A model generated the notes under the pieces. The model worked only from the letters and a program-made list of their open reading frames with translations. It did no database searches and was not told where the DNA came from. From Flavobacterium sp. (GTDB lineage: Bacteria > Bacteroidota > Bacteroidia > Chitinophagales > Chitinophagaceae), in assembly GCA_030053925.1 (NCBI GenBank), contig JASGCX010000010.1, positions 5,292 through 69,279 on the forward strand: a stretch of 63,988 bases of DNA, written 5' to 3'. Each line of letters starts with the position of its first letter. Positions within the stretch are counted from its first letter, which is position 1. The translations under genes were made by a program, and so were the position numbers. Of the stretch, positions 50,260 to 63,988 are shown in pieces.

Positions 50260-51972
50260 TTATGCTGAAAGTTTATATTCTAATGTTGATGTATTTGCGT
50301 TAGGGATTGAAGTGGAAATCCTTTTTTGAGGAACGAAAAAAAGATTGGAACGGAAAGCCCGACCCTTTAGGGTAACGCCCAAATTGTTCCTTTCTTTTTC
50401 TTTAAAATAAAGGCCATAACCATTTGTAAAAAAAGCGTCAACTTCGTTAACCAATAAAAACCTTGGGTGTTGGCTAAAAGTTGGATTTAAAATTTTCTTT
50501 CCTGTTTTTGTAAGACCTTGTGTTCGACCCCAAACAAAGAAAGGTTCAAAATTTACTTTGCCTTTATCTCGTGCTAGTAAAGTTTCTTTTTCGGTAAGCA
50601 GGTAAGCGTAACATTTTGGAAATTTTATTTTAAATTCAATTTCAGAAATTGCAGTTGCTACACCTTTTTTTCGTGTGTATGGAAAAATTATTTTTCTAGT
50701 GTTTCGTTCTGCTTCTTCTTGTGATTTAAAATCTGAAATTTTATAGACGGGTTTCACTGCTTCTTTTTCAATTTCAAAACTGCCTTTGTCTGTTGTTTTT
50801 ATATAATAGCCGTTTTTTGTATTGCTGCCGTCAATAAAAAAAACATCATCTTTTAGAGTTGCAATTCCAACACAAATGTCAAATAGTTTTCCAATTGGTT
50901 TTCCGGTTGTTTCAATGGTTTTAATGTTCTGCTGCTCGTCTGTTTTTAGTAATCGCCATTTTTTTGAACTTAAATTTTTTATGTAGTTAGGCGAGCCATT
51001 TGCATTTGGCAAAAACGCTTCGGGGCTATAACCATTTTTAATTCTGTCGAATGTTATCGCTTCGTTTTCTTGTTTGTTTAAAAAAGTTAAGGCTGTGTAG
51101 GTTTGTGCATCAAAAACTTTATTGTGTGTAAAATCTATAATTCTTGTAACGCATTTTTTTTGCTGAAAATAGCTGCGTAAAGATTCTCCTGCTAACGAAG
51201 TAAAGTAATTGTTGGGTGTAATAAAACCAAGCTTGCCTGTTGTATTTAAAAGTTTGTACCCAAGTTCAAAAAAAGCAAAATATAAATTGAAAGTTCCACC
51301 TTCAACCGTTGTCCAATTTTTTGCTAAATAACTTCTGTTTTCATCTGTCAAATCTTGAAATTTTACATAAGGTGGATTACCAACAATATTGTCAAAAGTA
51401 AACGCCCAATTAGCTTTTAAGCTGTCTTGATGATACAAATTGAAGTCATTATCGCTTAAAATTTCTCCCTGTTGTAAAGCATAGATTGTTACGATAAGTT
51501 TTGTTCTTTTGATGTTGTAAAGTAAAATGTCTGAACCATAAATGTTTTGCTTCACAATGTCTTTAATAGTCTTATTAAAAGTAGTTTTATAGTAGTCAAC
51601 TAAGCCAACAAGAAACGCCCCACAGCCACAACTCGGGTCAAGATTTTTGTCATTCGGTTGTGGTTTAATCTCATTTATAATGAAGTCAATAATGTATTCT
51701 GGTGTAAAAAAAGCACCATTAAATTTTCTGTCATATTCTGGTATGATTAACTCTAAATAATTTTCAAGTTCTTTAATTGTTGAAATATCTAAAGAACTTG
51801 TTTGAAGGAATAATTTAGGATTATTTTCAAAGTTCTTAAAATAGTCAATTAGGATGGGACTTTGCTTAAAGTCAAGTTTGTTATTTGTTAAATACGAATA
51901 TAGCAAATGCTGTTCAAGGCTGTTTAAATCTTGAGTTCTTATAAGTTCGTTTAGTATATTCTTATTTATCAT
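50260..51972 (-). CDS. N6-adenine DNA methyltransferase (Eco57I/TaqI-like)
   Basis: GAFFTPEYIIDFII, DPSCGCGAFLVGLVDYY, and catalytic NPPYVKF. Confidence 0.87.
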   Translation of the reverse strand: MINKNILNELIRTQDLNSLEQHLLYSYLTNNKLDFKQSPILIDYFKNFENNPKLFLQTSSLDISTIKELENYLELIIPEYDRKFNGAFFTPEYIIDFIINEIKPQPNDKNLDPSCGCGAFLVGLVDYYKTTFNKTIKDIVKQNIYGSDILLYNIKRTKLIVTIYALQQGEILSDNDFNLYHQDSLKANWAFTFDNIVGNPPYVKFQDLTDENRSYLAKNWTTVEGGTFNLYFAFFELGYKLLNTTGKLGFITPNNYFTSLAGESLRSYFQQKKCVTRIIDFTHNKVFDAQTYTALTFLNKQENEAITFDRIKNGYSPEAFLPNANGSPNYIKNLSSKKWRLLKTDEQQNIKTIETTGKPIGKLFDICVGIATLKDDVFFIDGSNTKNGYYIKTTDKGSFEIEKEAVKPVYKISDFKSQEEAERNTRKIIFPYTRKKGVATAISEIEFKIKFPKCYAYLLTEKETLLARDKGKVNFEPFFVWGRTQGLTKTGKKILNPTFSQHPRFLLVNEVDAFFTNGYGLYFKEKERNNLGVTLKGRAFRSNLFFVPQKRISTSIPNANTSTLEYKLSA

Positions 51973-53128: not shown

Positions 53129-53392
53129 TTATAGTGAACGATAAATTGAAGATAATTCTATTTTTAATTGAGATACAGATTGATAACGACTGTTTAAATC
53201 AAATGCAATCATTCGCAAAATTGCGTTATCAAGAGCCGTTGAAATTGATGGATGATTTTGTGATGAGGGTATTGGAACATTAAATCTTTGTCCGGTTAAA
53301 GGGTCAAACACTTGTGGAATTTTTCCTGTCATCATTTCATAAAACATAATTCCAACAGAATAAATATCTGTTCGTCCATCAACGGTTTGCAG
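53129..53392 (-). pseudogene. 3' fragment of a Ser/Thr protein kinase
   Basis: TVDGRTDIYSVGIMFYEMMTGKIPQVFDP... is the C-lobe of a Hanks kinase. The N-terminal MAGSVLNSTG... part of the ORF-track call lies in the insertion end. Confidence 0.8.
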
Positions 53393-56300
53393 CTTGGCGA
53401 AGTGGCGGAAATCGAAGCACAAAGGTTCAGTTTTGCACAAAAGTTCAATCGAAGAACTGCCCGTTGAATTTAGCACTGAACCCGCCATTTTGCCAAACTG
53501 CTGTTACCTGCTGGCGTTCTGTCTGTCGTTGCTCTGGTGCCCATTGTTTATGGTGTCTTGGTGCGTTGGCTTGGTGGCTCTTTTGGATTTTTTAGCGTTG
53601 GTCTGTGCGGCTGCAAAAAATACAAATGTGCCATCAAATGCGTTGACTATAAATACTTTTTCATTACTTTTTTTTTCTTGTCTGCCGAACTGTTAATTTT
53701 TGCTTGTTCTGCTTTCATTTTTTTCTCATACAGTTCAATTTCAGAAACTAGTTTTACTTGCTCTTTTAAATTCGGAAGATTAATTGTAAAATTTTCTATG
53801 TCGTCTTTATTTATACTCGGATAAGAACCTCTTGGCATAGCTTTTTCCATTTGTGTCATTAAATCATTTGAATACATAAAAGCATAAAAAATGATTTTGT
53901 TTAAAAGTATAGTTTCGTCTTTGCTTTTTAGAACAGCAAAACCTGTTGAATAGATACTATTGGCAACCTCCTTTTCTATAAATGCAAAACCTTTTAAATA
54001 AGGTCTAACAGTTGACACAATTGTGCTACCACTTGTCGCTATTCGCCTAGCCCTTGATGGAGCGTTTATTCCTAAAATAGATTGCTCATAGCTAATTATA
54101 CCTGTTCCTTTGCCAACGCTTTCAATATCTACGTATATGAATTCCTTATCCTTTTCAGTTGTTGGGTCTTTTGATAATGTATTAATATCAACTAAGTCTT
54201 TTATTTTTTGAGGTTTAGCAGATGCAAAATACTTGCTAATAGTAGAATTAATTTCATTTTTCAATTTTTCAATTTCGGCTTCAGCTTTAATATTTGTTTT
54301 ATCAATTAAAATACACTCATCCACAATGCTTTTTTGAATTGGCATTGGAGGGAAAGGTATTTTTAATTCTTTGAGATATGTAGTGTTAACGCTGGCTTGA
54401 TTGATTGCCTTTTGTGCTTGGTTTTTTATTTCATTTGTAAGGTCGTCTAATTTTAAAATTTCAGCAACATATTTAGGTAAAACCTTTTCTGTATTTGGTC
54501 TGAATTTTAATAAATTAATTCCGTGAACTATTTTTTCATCTAAATTAAAAACAGCTGTCTTAGCTAAATGCTTTATACTATTTATGTGACTAAATAAAAT
54601 ATCATTCTTTTGCAAAAAATCTTCCTCCTTAACTTTGTCATTAGTCCATTTAACTGCATCTGCATCAAATCTACCTGTAGCAATAGTTTCAATTCTTGAA
54701 ACTTTATATTTACCAACGTCATCGTTCTGAGTAACGGTCTTGCCATTTTTTATTTCAATAAATGCATCTTCCAATTTTATTGAACCATATTTAGAGGCAA
54801 TTGGGTTCATATTTTTTGCAGACAGCTTAATCTGTTTATTAAATGCTTTCAATCTGAAATCTAACATATCAACAAGTTTTAAATAGTAAACTTGTGATTG
54901 CAAATTTTCAGGTATTTCTACTGGTGTTCCTAAGAAGTTTTGCTTAATTAAATAGTTTATTTTTGTTTCATTTTCAGAATTAGATGGGTCATAAAGTGGA
55001 GTTTGAATATTGTGTAAACCACTAATTTTTTGAACAAACTCTTCCGTTTCGGTATCATCATCATCAGAAATAGGCTTGCTTTGATTGAGATATTTTATAC
55101 CCTCGTTCCCTTTTGCATTACTCCATTCATAGCCAAGAAATTTCTTTTGCTCTTTATTATCTGTTGGACATTTTACGACTAAAACATTTTGTTTATTTTC
55201 CGAAGCTAAAACATAGAAATAGAGTTTTTCCTTTTCTATCACTTGTAAATATTCTATAAAACGTTTTTTAAGTTCGGTTTCTTGGTCTGCTTTTAATTTT
55301 TTACTAAAAGCACTATTTGATTTTTTGAGGTTTTTAATTTCCGATAAATTGTCAAACGCTTTTTTGTAATCAACAAACATTTCAGATTTTAATAACTCAT
55401 TACTTGGCTTACCAGTTAATAATGTTTTATATTGTGTTGCATCAACTTCGATATGATTGCAGTAATTGGCTATGTAATTACCATCATTGTAAACAGCATC
55501 GGCTTTATTCTTCGTAAACCAAGCATCAACTCTGTTTTTCCAATGGTCGGCAGGTGATGGATTTTCCTCTTTTCTTCGTAAGAAAAGTGTAACTGTATTT
55601 TGTCCGGTTTTCCCGAATGTTTGATTACCAAATTCTACTATTGAAACAATATCAAAATACTTCAATATTATTTCTCTTGTATTTACATAAATAGTTGAGC
55701 CATCAAAAATTATAGATGTTGGTAGTACTATACCTGCAATTCCATTAGATTTTAAAAGCTGTTTGGCTCTTTCAATAAAAAAGGTTTCTATACTTTTATT
55801 ACTAGCAAGACTTTTCTCATCTACAGAATTTATTAAAGAAAACTTCTTTCTTTCTGTTTCGCTTAAAGTTTGCAGAAAACCTCTTACTGTGTATGGTGGA
55901 TTTGCTACTATTACAGAAAATTCGCTATCCTTCAATTTTGATTTACTACCAAGTGCATCGGCATAAGTTATTTTAATTTCATCCTGACCATACATAAAGG
56001 CTGAAACTTTAGCAACTTTTGATAATCGATATTCCTTTTCAATGCCTACAATTTCCTTATAGTACTCTCTAATATCTGTTTCTTTATTTTTTTCAACAAA
56101 TTGCTTTATCTGAAGTGCTAATTCATTTAAAAAGTGACCCGCACCACAAGCATAGTCAATCGCTTTAGGGGGCAATTCACTTTCTTGGATAATTCTTTCT
56201 AATGGTAAAGAATTAAGTATGAATTTTACAATTGGCATAGGTGTAAAAAACTGCCCCTCACTTTGCTTAACGCCACTATCCAAAAAGCCTTCAAACAAAT

Positions 56301-57786
56301 CTCCTAAAAACTGATGCTCATTATCTGATTTTAATTTAAAATCTTGGAGCATTTTGACAACTTGAATTAATACCTCAGAATTTTGATGAAATAGTTTTTC
56401 GTTATGCACATCAATAAATCCGAAATCATTGTTGTTATAATATTTTAATTCTTTAAAATATTTTTTTACAGTTTCTTTAGCTGCATCGGGGTCTTCAATA
56501 AAAAATCCAAATGCGTTTTCAATTGCATTATTACTTACATAGACAACATCTTCACCCAAAAAACGTTGCATACCTTCTTGATATAGTTTTTGTAATCTGT
56601 CTACAATATCAAATGAACTATCATAAGCTATTCCTTTCCAATAAAATTTAAGATTATCCTCATTTATAGTTTCATCAACAATTTTACAAAGGAAAAGATT
56701 AACCAATTTATCAAAAGCGTTTTCTCGACCAGAAACATTATGTTGTCGCATAATGGTTGCAAACTCGTGGTATTTGCTTTGAATGTCTTTACTGCCAACT
56801 TCTATAAGGTCGTCAATAGTGTATTTTTGTTTACCTATTTCGTATGGTAAAATATCATCTTCAAAAATTCCTTTTGTTCCAAAATCTAAATTGTAGGTTT
56901 CTTTCCAAGCCTTGTATATATCTTCAACTTCTAACGCTTTAGCTTCTTTAAAAGATAAAGGCTTTTTGTCGGCTAACTCTTCAAGCAACTTTTCGTTGTC
57001 TTTGAGAGATATGATATAATGATATGGTATTACTTTGCTGTCAGAAAAGTCTGAAGCATAAAGGCAAACATATTGTGTTGTTCCTGCCTGCTTCGCATAC
57101 GTCAGCATTTGTCCGCCACGTTGCAAAGTATTGTTCCATTCTTTTTTAAATTCGTTTCCTTCCGTTTTGCACTCAATTATTAAAAGTGATTTTCCTGAAT
57201 TGTCTTTTACTAAAATGTCTGCTCGTCCACCGCTTGCACCGTGTCCAACTTTCCATTTTGGTTCAAGTTCTATATGTTCGGGTTTATATCCTTTGTTAAA
57301 AAGTCTATGCACACACTCAAAAACAACAAAGTTTTCGTCTGATGCAAAATTGCAAGTAAACTCTCCGTTAACAACAAAACCTTTGTCTGTTGGATAAACA
57401 AGTAAACTTTTAGCGAAATCGACTTTTAAATATGCGTCAGTTTCGGGAAAGTGTTTACTAAAAACTTTGCCCTTTTCTTCAAAGTTCAATGTTTTCAATA
57501 AGTCCTTTAAGTTTTCTTTATTTATCATTTATTTCTTGTCAAATTATTTGGTCGTAAAGTTAGTTTTTCTATAGTGATTTTTCGCAAAAGTTATCGTAAA
57601 AATGTCAACACTCGTACTGTCGAGTGGTGGGTAGGCATTGGGTGCGGCTGGGTAAAATTAAATGTGCTGCAAAAGCGTTGGCTTGTGTGTCGGCTTGCAG
57701 CTCTTTTAATTTTACGAAGCGTTGGCATTTTGTCTGTCGATTTATGGTTCGTTTGTTGTCGGTTGTGTCGTCCGCTACGCTTGCAG
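53393..57786. mobile_element. ~4.4 kb insertion carrying a fused RM gene; interrupts the kinase gene
   Basis: Kinase subdomains continue on both sides; TTGCAG occurs at both boundaries (53387-53392 and 57781-57786); ends contain related GTGGCGGA/GTAGCGGA (opposite strands) and gcgttggctt/tgtctgtcg motifs; no transposase ORF inside. Confidence 0.65.
53647..57528 (-). CDS. Single-polypeptide restriction-modification enzyme: PD-(D/E)XK-like nuclease + HsdM-type N6-methylase + specificity (TRD) region
   Basis: GGRADILVKDNSGKSLLIIECKTEG (nuclease), SEGQFFTPMPIVKFILNSL, DYACGAGHFLNELA, VIVANPPYTVRGF (methylase); C-terminal HsdS-like repeats. Confidence 0.85.
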   Translation of the reverse strand: MINKENLKDLLKTLNFEEKGKVFSKHFPETDAYLKVDFAKSLLVYPTDKGFVVNGEFTCNFASDENFVVFECVHRLFNKGYKPEHIELEPKWKVGHGASGGRADILVKDNSGKSLLIIECKTEGNEFKKEWNNTLQRGGQMLTYAKQAGTTQYVCLYASDFSDSKVIPYHYIISLKDNEKLLEELADKKPLSFKEAKALEVEDIYKAWKETYNLDFGTKGIFEDDILPYEIGKQKYTIDDLIEVGSKDIQSKYHEFATIMRQHNVSGRENAFDKLVNLFLCKIVDETINEDNLKFYWKGIAYDSSFDIVDRLQKLYQEGMQRFLGEDVVYVSNNAIENAFGFFIEDPDAAKETVKKYFKELKYYNNNDFGFIDVHNEKLFHQNSEVLIQVVKMLQDFKLKSDNEHQFLGDLFEGFLDSGVKQSEGQFFTPMPIVKFILNSLPLERIIQESELPPKAIDYACGAGHFLNELALQIKQFVEKNKETDIREYYKEIVGIEKEYRLSKVAKVSAFMYGQDEIKITYADALGSKSKLKDSEFSVIVANPPYTVRGFLQTLSETERKKFSLINSVDEKSLASNKSIETFFIERAKQLLKSNGIAGIVLPTSIIFDGSTIYVNTREIILKYFDIVSIVEFGNQTFGKTGQNTVTLFLRRKEENPSPADHWKNRVDAWFTKNKADAVYNDGNYIANYCNHIEVDATQYKTLLTGKPSNELLKSEMFVDYKKAFDNLSEIKNLKKSNSAFSKKLKADQETELKKRFIEYLQVIEKEKLYFYVLASENKQNVLVVKCPTDNKEQKKFLGYEWSNAKGNEGIKYLNQSKPISDDDDTETEEFVQKISGLHNIQTPLYDPSNSENETKINYLIKQNFLGTPVEIPENLQSQVYYLKLVDMLDFRLKAFNKQIKLSAKNMNPIASKYGSIKLEDAFIEIKNGKTVTQNDDVGKYKVSRIETIATGRFDADAVKWTNDKVKEEDFLQKNDILFSHINSIKHLAKTAVFNLDEKIVHGINLLKFRPNTEKVLPKYVAEILKLDDLTNEIKNQAQKAINQASVNTTYLKELKIPFPPMPIQKSIVDECILIDKTNIKAEAEIEKLKNEINSTISKYFASAKPQKIKDLVDINTLSKDPTTEKDKEFIYVDIESVGKGTGIISYEQSILGINAPSRARRIATSGSTIVSTVRPYLKGFAFIEKEVANSIYSTGFAVLKSKDETILLNKIIFYAFMYSNDLMTQMEKAMPRGSYPSINKDDIENFTINLPNLKEQVKLVSEIELYEKKMKAEQAKINSSADKKKKVMKKYL

Positions 57787-58357
57787 GTAACAATTGTATT
57801 AGCGAACCATTGTTCTGGTGAGCAATATCTTGGTGTGCCGATACCACCAACGGTAAGTCCTATTGAGGTTCTATTAATATCTTTTCCAATACCCCAATCA
57901 GCCACTTTTATCACATTCTGTTGCGCTGTTGTAAATAATAAATTTTCAGGTTTTATATCTCTATGAAAAGTGAAATTTGAATGAGCTAATTGCAAAGCTT
58001 CTAAAGTGGGAAGTATTACAGCACCTAAAGCCCACTTTTGAGCAAATAATCCTCTTTTAGTGTTAAACATTTCACTCATTTTCCCTCTTAGTGACCCACC
58101 ATCCATAAACTCCATAATATAGTTTGGTCCAATGTTATTCGCTAGGTTTCCTTGTAAATTCCATTCATAAATACTGATAATACTTGGGTGCTTGAGAGTT
58201 TGAAGAATATTTATTTCTCTCTCAAATCTCTTTAAATTAATTGTGTTAGGATTTTTTAATTCTTTTAATGCACCTTTTTTTCAGTATCCGATTTTACTTC
58301 ATAAACTTTTCCAAAATCCCCCTCGTCAATAGTTTTAATTATGTTCCAATTTGCCAT
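57787..58357 (-). pseudogene. 5' fragment of the Ser/Thr protein kinase, with a frameshift
   Basis: MANWNIIKTIDEGDFGKVYEVKSDTEKK (frameshift in 7-T tract 58275-58281) then LKELKNPNTINLKRFEREINILQTLKHPSIISIYEW...HRDIKPENLL...GTPRYCSPEQWFANTI. Confidence 0.8.
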
Positions 58358-60740: not shown

Positions 60741-61430
60741 TTAGTTAGAAGGCTTGGCGTACTCTAACAATCTTTCCACTAAAAGATAAACCCTTGTAGT
60801 GGGACAGGAATTTGCTGGTGTTGCACCCGTGCTGTTTGCTTCCAAAACCCTTGCCCATTCAATTGCTTGACGAACATTACCTTTTTCAAAAAGTAATTTA
60901 ATGACATTCAAGTCATTTTTTTCATACTTAAACTTCAAAATCTTTGACAAAATTGTAATGTAGTCACTTCTGTGTAGAGCGTTTTGGAGAAATTGAAAAT
61001 GGAGAACATACCATAACTCAAAAGATTGATTAGAATGGCCGCTTTCAATATTATTTTGAGTAGCCAAATTAACAGCGGTATTAAATCTGTTGGCAGGAAA
61101 ATCATCTTTATCGTAAACAGCCCAAACCTCATTATAGTTAGGCAGCAAAACATTTTTCTTTCTTTCGTCTCTTAAAGAAATTGCTTTTAAAACAATGTTT
61201 ACAGTATTATCACCTTCGCCATGTACATTAATAGTTTCAATTAAGTGCTTAGGTAAAAATGTTTTAAAATGATTAAAGTAATTTGGCTCGGTTCGTTCGC
61301 CTTCGCTAACAATTAAGAAGTATTTTCTTTCTGGAATTACTTCTACTGGCTTTGGTGCGGCAATAACATTCTGCTTTAATTCTTTTAAGAAATTTGCAAA
61401 GGTCTCTTTTTTAGCTTTTGCCATTAACAA
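60741..61430 (-). CDS. RloB-like protein (AbiLii-like)
   Basis: KYFLIVSEGERTEPNYFNHFKTFLP, EVWAVYDKDDFP, SFELWYVLHFQF; overlaps the upstream AAA ATPase ORF by about 20 nt. Confidence 0.82.
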   Translation of the reverse strand: MLMAKAKKETFANFLKELKQNVIAAPKPVEVIPERKYFLIVSEGERTEPNYFNHFKTFLPKHLIETINVHGEGDNTVNIVLKAISLRDERKKNVLLPNYNEVWAVYDKDDFPANRFNTAVNLATQNNIESGHSNQSFELWYVLHFQFLQNALHRSDYITILSKILKFKYEKNDLNVIKLLFEKGNVRQAIEWARVLEANSTGATPANSCPTTRVYLLVERLLEYAKPSN

Positions 61431-62688
61431 TCAATTTTTCAAGGTCTTCAATAAATGGAATTGCACCGTACTTTCCTTCTAGATAGTTTTTATCATAAGG
61501 AGAATCTTTTCTTGGTTTATACTCAACCAATGAGACAGCACTTGACGCACCATAAATGTTTTTCTCAATAAAATAAATCTGGTCACGGCGAAGAATTTCT
61601 CTATCAAGTAGCGCCGTATCATGACTTGCTACAAGTAGTTGAGCAGTCGATTTAATAATAGAAGAATTAAAAAGCTTCAAAATCGCTTTTGTAAGTAAGG
61701 TGTGTAATCTTGCATCAAATTCGTCTATAACAACAACTCTATTTTCGAGCAAAGCGGTTATTAGTAACCCAACTATATTAAAATATTTCTTTGTTCCCTC
61801 TGATTCTGATTTATTTAGTAATAGTGGTACAGTTCCAACTATCTCATTCTTGTCATTGTACTTATTATGGATTGCAAAAACAGCTTTCTCCGAACGTTCC
61901 TTAAACCCCTTTTTAAAAAAATCTTTGAGCTCGTCTGGCACCCTTTTAATGATATCTTCACCCTTAATTGGATTATCAACAACATCAATATTATTAATAC
62001 CTAAATCGGCCTTTTTAATGAAATTATTTATAAGTGTTGAATACTTTTTATCATTTAAAAGCTCAATAGTTAATTTTCTGTATTCATCATCTTCCATTCC
62101 ATGAACAGTAAAAATACGCTCAATCCATTCATCAATTTTTTGTGCTTTTGAAACATTCCACTGTGAAGCCACAGACAGAAAAAGCGCATTTTTTCTAGTA
62201 CGTTTTTCCAAATCTTCAGCATTTTCAAATCTTTTATAATCAATTTCTACTTTCTGATTGATGCGTAAGAAAACCGGATATTCTTTGGCAGCTTTAGATT
62301 CTAAAAGCCATTCTTTGTGTACCACGTTTTTATCAGCTTCGAACCCATAACGATATGTTAGTTTACCGAGTGTAAACGACATTTCAAAAAAACTGGGTTT
62401 ATTGGCTGTTGATTCATTAAATTCAAATGGCTCTACGTCAATTGGCTCATTACTTTGTTTTTCTGTTGCGGAGTTATTTATAAACCATTTAAAGTAAACT
62501 AGGGCATCAAGCAACTTAGATTTACCACTTGCATTATGACCATACAAGACAATAGATTTCAGCAAGGAACTCTTGTTATTATAAATAACATTCGATTCTG
62601 TATGTTCGCTTATTGATGCCGCATTGAAGTTTAAGGTGACAGCTTCTTTAATAGACTTAAAATTGGCAACCTTAAAATAAATTATCAT
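61411..62688 (-). CDS. AAA family ATPase, RloA/AbiLi-like (AAA15/ABC-ATPase type)
   Basis: FKVANFKSIKEAVTLNF, Walker A LYGHNASGKSKLLDAL, Walker B NRVVVIDEFDARLH, ATPase switch SHDTALLD. Confidence 0.87.
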   Translation of the reverse strand: MIIYFKVANFKSIKEAVTLNFNAASISEHTESNVIYNNKSSLLKSIVLYGHNASGKSKLLDALVYFKWFINNSATEKQSNEPIDVEPFEFNESTANKPSFFEMSFTLGKLTYRYGFEADKNVVHKEWLLESKAAKEYPVFLRINQKVEIDYKRFENAEDLEKRTRKNALFLSVASQWNVSKAQKIDEWIERIFTVHGMEDDEYRKLTIELLNDKKYSTLINNFIKKADLGINNIDVVDNPIKGEDIIKRVPDELKDFFKKGFKERSEKAVFAIHNKYNDKNEIVGTVPLLLNKSESEGTKKYFNIVGLLITALLENRVVVIDEFDARLHTLLTKAILKLFNSSIIKSTAQLLVASHDTALLDREILRRDQIYFIEKNIYGASSAVSLVEYKPRKDSPYDKNYLEGKYGAIPFIEDLEKLIVNGKS

Positions 62689-62859
62689 TTTATGCAGATT
62701 TTACGCAAAAATACAACTTTTTACCCCATTATAAGTTAATATTTAACCGCTTATGCGAAAAAATAGCACGAACGCTTAATAAACGTATTTGCAAAAGCAG
62801 TTAGGCTTAATGCTTATTGGAACCGCTGAGAATTCAACAATTCTGACAAAACAATATCA

Positions 62860-63988
62860 ATGAGAAGAATACTAGAACTTAATCATACAGAGGCAAGACA
62901 ATTTCTATTAAAGGCTGAAAGCTATTTTAATTTTGATTTACCTAAATATTTCACTTTCACAAATATTATTCAACAAATTTCAACAAAACTCACTCGTAAA
63001 AGACTTTCTGATTTCTTAGGCATTTATACAGACCCAACTAATAGAAAGCAAAAACCAACTCAACCTTATGACTACGAAAATGTAAATTATACTTTCCTAA
63101 ATAATAAAGATGGGAAGTTTGCTTGGCGACCATTTCAATTAATACATCCAGCATTGTATGTTTCTCTTGTACACAATATGACTGAAGAAGTAAATTGGAA
63201 CTTTATCGTTGCTAGATTTGTTCAATTTGCCACTAACCCAAACATTAAGTGTTACAGTATTCCTTTAGAATCACAAGGGGTACAATCTGACAAGGCTACT
63301 AATGTTAGCCAATGGTGGCAGTCAATAGAGCAACAATCTTTAGAACTTGCATTATCATACGAGTACATTTTACATACAGACATTTCCGATTGTTATGGCT
63401 CAATCTATACACATTCTGTTCCTTGGGCACTTCATAATAAATTAGTTGCAAAAGCTAATAGAGACCCGAATGGAAATTTAGGAAATATCATTGACAAACA
63501 TCTTCGTGATATGGCTTTTGGACAAACCAATGGAATACCACAAGGAAGTGTGTTAATGGATTTCATTGCCGAAATGGTTTTAGGTTATGCCGACACAGAA
63601 ATATCAAACAGAATTCAACAAGCAAATATTCAAGACTATCACATAATAAGATATAGAGATGATTACCGAATATTTTCAAACAATCCACAAGATTCTGAAT
63701 TAATTACTAAAATTTTAACCGAAGTTTTAATTGAACTAGGAATGAGGCTGAATACTCAAAAGACTTTAGTTTCAAACAATGTCATTAGGGATTCTATTAA
63801 ACAAGATAAATTATATTGGATAGCTAAAAAAAATGTTGCAAAAAGTATTCAGACACATCTTCTGTTAATTCATAACTTAGCAGAAAAGCATATAAATTCA
63901 GGTAGTTTACAAAAGGCTTTAGGCAAGTTTTATAGGGTGCATAAAAGTTTTTCCGTGTGCATAAAATTTTTCTGCAAAAAAACCGTTA
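62860..63988 (+). CDS. Reverse transcriptase (RNA-directed DNA polymerase), partial at window edge
   Basis: Own translation from ATG 62860; no stop before the edge. Motifs HTDISDCYGSIYTHSVPWAL, TNGIPQGSVLMDFIAEMVLGYAD, IIRYRDDYRIFSNN, LGMRLNTQKT. Not in the ORF track. Confidence 0.9.
   Translation, partial: MRRILELNHTEARQFLLKAESYFNFDLPKYFTFTNIIQQISTKLTRKRLSDFLGIYTDPTNRKQKPTQPYDYENVNYTFLNNKDGKFAWRPFQLIHPALYVSLVHNMTEEVNWNFIVARFVQFATNPNIKCYSIPLESQGVQSDKATNVSQWWQSIEQQSLELALSYEYILHTDISDCYGSIYTHSVPWALHNKLVAKANRDPNGNLGNIIDKHLRDMAFGQTNGIPQGSVLMDFIAEMVLGYADTEISNRIQQANIQDYHIIRYRDDYRIFSNNPQDSELITKILTEVLIELGMRLNTQKTLVSNNVIRDSIKQDKLYWIAKKNVAKSIQTHLLLIHNLAEKHINSGSLQKALGKFYRVHKSFSVCIKFFCKKTV

Follow-up and report, generated by a model that had tools for sequence, protein, structure and literature searches.

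The right end of the stretch of DNA analysed here (63,988 nucleotides, referred to as the window) very probably carries the 5' two-thirds of a Bacteroidota gene (probably Chitinophagaceae) for an anti-phage polymerase of the Abi-P2 family, which an insertion sequence disrupted not long ago at codon 359; the gene is most likely inactive and comes from a clade that spreads in cassettes. The family assignment draws on relatives: a genome listed under the same family has an Abi-P2 locus that agrees, in every part compared, with that of Parafilimonas terrae (L074). As a reverse transcriptase (RT) the gene is ordinary, being one more broken copy of a known family. The weight of the finding would lie with the carrier, an integron-like cassette system of Bacteroidota that moves anti-phage genes, including a protein-primed polymerase.

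An insertion sequence interrupts the RT gene

The frame that begins at ATG 62860 had been described as open to the window end, and it is indeed open as far as 63987 (376 codons). However, the gene's own sequence runs only to 63934 (358 codons plus 1 nt), where an element enters codon 359 and supplies the final 18 residues of the frame. What keeps the frame open is solely the position of the contig end (contig C38, which ends with the window), 54 bp inside an insertion sequence. The preliminary description overlooked the element end that follows 63934 and took the gene simply to run on past the contig. The left end of the element (63935..63988, + strand) bears the terminal inverted repeat GGGTGCATAAAAGTTTTTCC, and these final 54 bases of the window are also found at the end of contig C102. 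They are preceded by an 8-bp target-site duplication, GTTTTATA (63927..63934, +), the second copy of which lies at the element end on contig C99. By pattern search, the 20-bp terminal repeat was found at the ends of five contigs, followed by one of two versions of sequence, which we thus take to be the left and right ends of a single insertion sequence: the left end closes C38 and C102, and the right end closes C30, C88 and C99.

The missing part of the gene lies on C99. Positions 337-486 of the AbiP2 profile, which are missing from the window, match the end of this contig beside the right element end, in an open frame with no stops, and the remaining ~150 codons of Abi-P2 are intact and in frame. 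A homologue that is 69% identical and intact runs uninterrupted across the position of the break (SKFYNRIKGITE); joined at GTTTTATA, the two halves read GKFY-TRIK where this homologue reads SKFYNRIK. Beyond the broken gene, C99 carries housekeeping genes that, read by eye, we take to be elongation factor P and acetyl-CoA carboxylase subunits.

The element body is absent from the assembly, so the joining of C38 to C99 is inferred from the duplication, the frame and the collinearity, and not from reads. When 150 genomes of the family were searched by pattern, no intact copy of the insertion sequence was found, and with neither a body in the assembly nor such a copy the attempt to name the element was abandoned. 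It is conceivable that only a fraction of the population carries the insertion. Given the insertion in codon 359 with its 8-bp duplication, the gene is filed as a disrupted Abi-P2 and not as a working member: the helical domain is encoded (on C99), but both domains do not stand in one uninterrupted frame.

Inverted pairs of GTGCATAAATTTTTTTC and GTGCATAAACAATTTTC (or near variants), ~83 bp apart, were observed elsewhere in the genome (C30 55676/55759, C55 61195/61278, C74 26648/26731 and C57 15691/15772) and at ~33923 of the window. These pairs resemble small non-autonomous elements, and their ends are like those of the insertion sequence in the RT gene.

Consequence of the break

In our reading, an Abi-P2 anti-phage polymerase gene, a member of a clade spreading in Bacteroidota as an integron-like cassette, was split by the recent entry of an insertion sequence at codon 359. 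The predicted 5' product would consist of residues 1-358 and 18 element-derived residues, keeping the fingers and palm and losing nearly all of the helical domain, and the present copy would then most likely lack activity. The helical domain has two roles in Abi-P2 and AbiK, as a lining of the DNA channel and as a participant in the trimer, and in Abi-P2 it makes inter-protomer contacts (PMC9508834). AbiK activity requires oligomerisation, to which the helical domain contributes, and AbiK without its 46 C-terminal residues loses its anti-phage activity (PMC9508834). Since the window gene has lost nearly all of a domain that serves the DNA channel and the trimer, and since truncation of AbiK abolishes activity, the present copy is probably inactive by analogy.

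The split gene might still work if the 5' fingers/palm product and a C-terminal fragment were to assemble as two chains. The C-terminal frame (locus L039, 11310-11786, - strand) is intact, with 158 codons from an ATG located in the element tip and in frame with it (MHPFYTRIK...), and neither half contains a stop or frameshift. However, intact halves are equally to be expected shortly after an insertion, and the inter-protomer contacts formed by the Abi-P2 helical domain (PMC9508834) also speak against a two-chain enzyme, which we consider unlikely.

The genome is a draft in 134 contigs whose contamination is estimated at 3.5%, and the contig ends in question are repeats, which could have been wrongly attached to a gene that is intact in the cell. 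Against such an artefact stand two separate insertions of the same element, each with its own exact 8-bp duplication (the second, between C102 and C30, has ATTATTTT), and the fact that both halves of the RT gene stop at the same codon at the element end, which makes an assembly error improbable.

The RT belongs to the Abi-P2 class

The 5' two-thirds of the gene (62860..63934, +) encode residues 1-358, comprising the fingers, the palm and the start of the helical domain. The RT motifs recognized earlier (DISDCYGSIYTHS, NGIPQGS and RYRDDYRIF) are present, with a Pfam RVT_1 match at E 8.7e-13. A PADLOC search and an RT phylogeny, both proposed in the preliminary description, agree on the class. 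The PADLOC model PDLC03744 (AbiP2) matches residues 1-360 with 533 bits (E 1.8e-160), compared to 169.5 bits for the second-best class, RT_UG14. The best match in the Protein Data Bank is Abi-P2 7R08 (E 1.9e-70, aligned residues 1-359), and the matching phage records are Abi-P2 proteins of P2-like prophages. In a tree that took in UG14, DRT4/6, DRT2, UG17, retron and group II-type RTs from related genomes, the window RT falls inside the Abi-P2 clade, beside its counterparts in Flavobacterium silvisoli (L063) and a Cytophagales metagenome-assembled genome (L065), with support of 100/98; as the outgroup branches are long, only this inner placement is used.

Conservation of individual residues was counted over 99 RT relatives from many phyla. 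Tyr30 (codon 62947..62949, +), which aligns with the priming Tyr61 in 7R08 numbering, is invariant (99/99), as is the catalytic Asp174 of DISDCYG (63379..63381, +). In the YRDD box (residues 265-268; 63652..63663, +) the tyrosine and the arginine are each found in 98 of the 99 relatives and the two aspartates in all 99. The catalytic aspartates D174, D267 and D268 are all in place. YRDD, which had been singled out as an unusual form of the box, is normal for Abi-P2, with 98/99 relatives having it. The supposed N-terminal extension of ~100 residues is simply the fingers region that Abi-P2 proteins normally have, the Abi-P2 alignment beginning at residue 1.

By its sequence, the window RT is of the Abi-P2 class, a known family with a solved structure and in vitro biochemistry. 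The Abi-P2 of 7R08 forms a trimer and carries out protein-primed, template-independent DNA synthesis in vitro, with Tyr61 as the priming tyrosine, and the Y61F substitution abolishes this synthesis (PMC9508834). The polymerase mechanism of the window gene would be the same, as judged from this solved relative.

The RT motifs and the defence neighbourhood could also suggest an intact RT of a new, unlisted UG/DRT defence class that continues past the contig end. The preliminary description correctly saw the membership among the Abi/UG (DRT) defence RTs, but took the exact class to be unassignable by eye. The reading as a new class is refuted by the AbiP2 match over residues 1-360 together with the placement inside the Abi-P2 clade, which assign a class, and by the sequence past 63934, which is a repeated element end; we regard a new class as very improbable. 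An origin as a retron, group II intron or DGR RT, set aside already in the preliminary description, has a negligible chance, as the scores of 51 bits with the group II model TIGR04416 and 34 bits with the best retron model (St85), which reflect the common RT core, are far below the respective cut-offs of 300 and 235, the tree gives the Abi-P2 clade, and an Rfam scan of the window yielded neither a group II intron nor any other RNA family linked to RTs in the vicinity of the gene.

Genes around the RT

The RloAB-like and restriction-modification genes reported earlier beside the Abi-P2 gene were recovered. An AAA_21 ATPase, AbiLi-like or RloA-like (61411..62688, -; PADLOC AbiLi E 5.1e-88, PF13304 E 3.4e-38), and an RloB-like, AbiLii-like protein (60741..61430, -; PF13707 E 8.9e-41, PADLOC AbiLii E 1.2e-23) form a pair oriented away from the RT, and restriction-modification genes also lie in its neighbourhood. 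Across all relatives, no recurrent partner gene of Abi-P2 was found. A non-coding RNA partner was also considered and rejected: the conserved flanks of the relatives proved to be attC-like sites and not a shared upstream RNA.

In seven distant relatives (L092, L095, L103, L107, L116, L131 and L139), Abi-P2 is embedded in a type I restriction operon or adjoins one, with hsdM/hsdS before it and hsdR after it (gene families checked in L103, L116, L131 and L139). Elsewhere in the window, a Flavo-1 RNA (Rfam RF01705, 59 bits; 50292-50368, +) is encoded antisense to the 3'-terminal part of a gene for an Eco57I-type methylase (50260-51972, -).

Abi-P2 is carried in integron-like cassettes in related Bacteroidota

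In close Bacteroidota relatives, Abi-P2 genes are carried as integron-like cassettes. Their flanks contain a core site ~50 bp before the start codon and its complement right after the stop codon, and downstream of the stop follows a ~136-nt palindrome that is imperfect in the manner of attC sites, individual bases being left unpaired at constant positions. An alignment of 12 sequences shows covariation: 17 of 24 pairs have changed on both sides, and 87% of the cells pair, compared to 31-40% when the alignment is slid by 1-3 columns. The covariance model R1 found 46 sites in the loci searched, comprising 44 in Abi-P2 loci on the gene strand, one in the window, and one weak reverse match over a known site. 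An attC-like site lies 8-16 nt past the stop in 10 independent Abi-P2 genes; the 3' sites of seven of the Abi-P2 loci were included in the training of R1, while L066, L091 and L098 contributed none. Also outside the training set are the window site, the other sites of the window's genome, and all array sites of L063 but the first.

In integrons, the two half-sites of a core site derive from one and the same cassette. Among 17 same-cassette pairs, the core sites match at a mean of 5.5 of 6 variable bases, compared to 2.5 with the next cassette; the same-cassette value was reached in 0 of 10,000 permutations. The first core-site statistic, computed over all 93 loci, gave 6 against 0.5 expected, a modest result because most of the distant relatives are not cassettes.

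Both tree neighbours of the window RT, L063 and L065, have an attC-like site downstream of the gene. In Flavobacterium silvisoli (L063 6158-17001), Abi-P2 is the first cassette after the integrase of an integron-like element, followed by 13 attC-like sites, mostly between small ORFs. The integrase, directly upstream of Abi-P2, is a 580-residue tyrosine recombinase with an N-terminal part of ~290 residues. Its best family is the integron integrase (TIGR02249, 221.7 bits, cut-off 265) and its best solved relative is Vibrio IntI (2A3V). L068 has a similar arrangement, with an integrase that scores 202.5 bits with TIGR02249 and slightly higher with a XerA-type model, which is itself named tyrosine recombinase/integron integrase. 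No integrase above the TIGR02249 cut-off of 265 was found in the window's genome or in ten cassette-bearing genomes, and these ten gave no TIGR02249 match at E 1e-40. The term integron-like is used since the integrases score below this cut-off. IntI/Xer-like recombinases are encoded on other contigs of the window's genome.

A restriction cassette in the window and scattered sites in the genome

The window contains an integron-like cassette of 4,408 bp (53383..57790, -) that carries a type IIG restriction-modification gene (PADLOC, 1486 bits) and lies inside a kinase gene. It was delimited by the attC model, by its core sites and by the restored kinase frame. Its attC-like site (53376..53512, -) scores 97.6 bits with R1 (E 1e-18), and the core sites at its two ends match at 9/9 positions (GTTACCTGC/GCAGGTAAC). 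The N-terminal piece of the Ser/Thr protein kinase (57791..58115, -; PF00069, E 1.2e-16) and its C-terminal piece (53129..53382, -; PF00069) flank the cassette, and excision between G and TT rejoins them in one frame, GTPRYCSPEQWFANTI-VDGRTDIYSVG. This precise insertion of a 4.4-kb restriction cassette in a kinase gene is a clean test case.

Over the whole of the window's genome, R1 gave 14 matches at E up to 0.001, the weakest on C21. Scattered attC-like sites (L201-L211) are located on contigs C107, C114, C127, C9, C47, C29, C110, C92, C54, C2 and C89, several of them directly after restriction or Abi genes, and in L205, L207 and L210 the 5' core site of the respective cassette matches exactly. 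Among the genes beside these sites are those for a type III restriction enzyme, a TdeIII enzyme and methylase, an AbiLi/AbiLii pair, a methylase and specificity subunit, a type IIG enzyme fragment, a PDC-S11 candidate and a KilA-N protein.

For the window RT itself, no attC-model match was found beside either half of the gene. A weak stem follows the stop codon (P 0.015, picked post hoc), and GTTAGGC, a possible cassette core site, occurs 60 bp before the start (62800..62806, +), with no attC-model match beside it. Given this stem, the GTTAGGC motif, and the nesting of the gene beside cassette-borne copies in the tree, we infer that a cassette origin of the window copy is plausible.

Comparison with known systems

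The window RT resembles the Abi-P2 proteins of P2-like prophages (ORF570, e.g. that of P2-EC30, PDB 7R08) over the whole RT part, with 37-38% identity. RYRDDYRIF is identical, and the priming tyrosine and catalytic aspartates are in place. Unlike the prophage genes, the window copy is chromosomal, lies outside a P2 prophage, belongs to Bacteroidota and is split by an insertion sequence. Nearest to it in the tree is the Abi-P2 of Flavobacterium silvisoli (81% identity over residues 1-365), which is intact and is the first cassette of an array, whereas the window copy has no attC-like site that passes the model.

IntegronFinder 2.0 reported a single complete integron in Bacteroidetes, that of Salinibacter ruber (PMC9024848). 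There is perhaps an even chance that Bacteroidota have a distinct integron class, largely undescribed in the open-licence PMC literature, with an IntI-related integrase that has a long N-terminal part and is without the middle section of the profile, attC sites of ~136 nt, and cassettes rich in anti-phage genes (Abi-P2, restriction-modification, AbiL) that occur singly or in arrays; the window Abi-P2 would then be a decayed, transposon-broken cassette. Anti-phage cassettes are known in Vibrio and mobile integrons, according to the passages of PMC12444791 and PMC12409362 that cite Darracq, Getz and Kieffer 2025. The Bacteroidota system is like these integrons in its attC-type palindromes, cassette-specific core sites, IntI-related integrase and defence genes. 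It differs from them in its integrase, which is most similar to IntI yet scores under the cut-off for integron integrases, does not cover the middle of that profile and carries a long N-terminal part, and in that the cassettes of the window's genome are scattered, one of them being 4.4 kb long.
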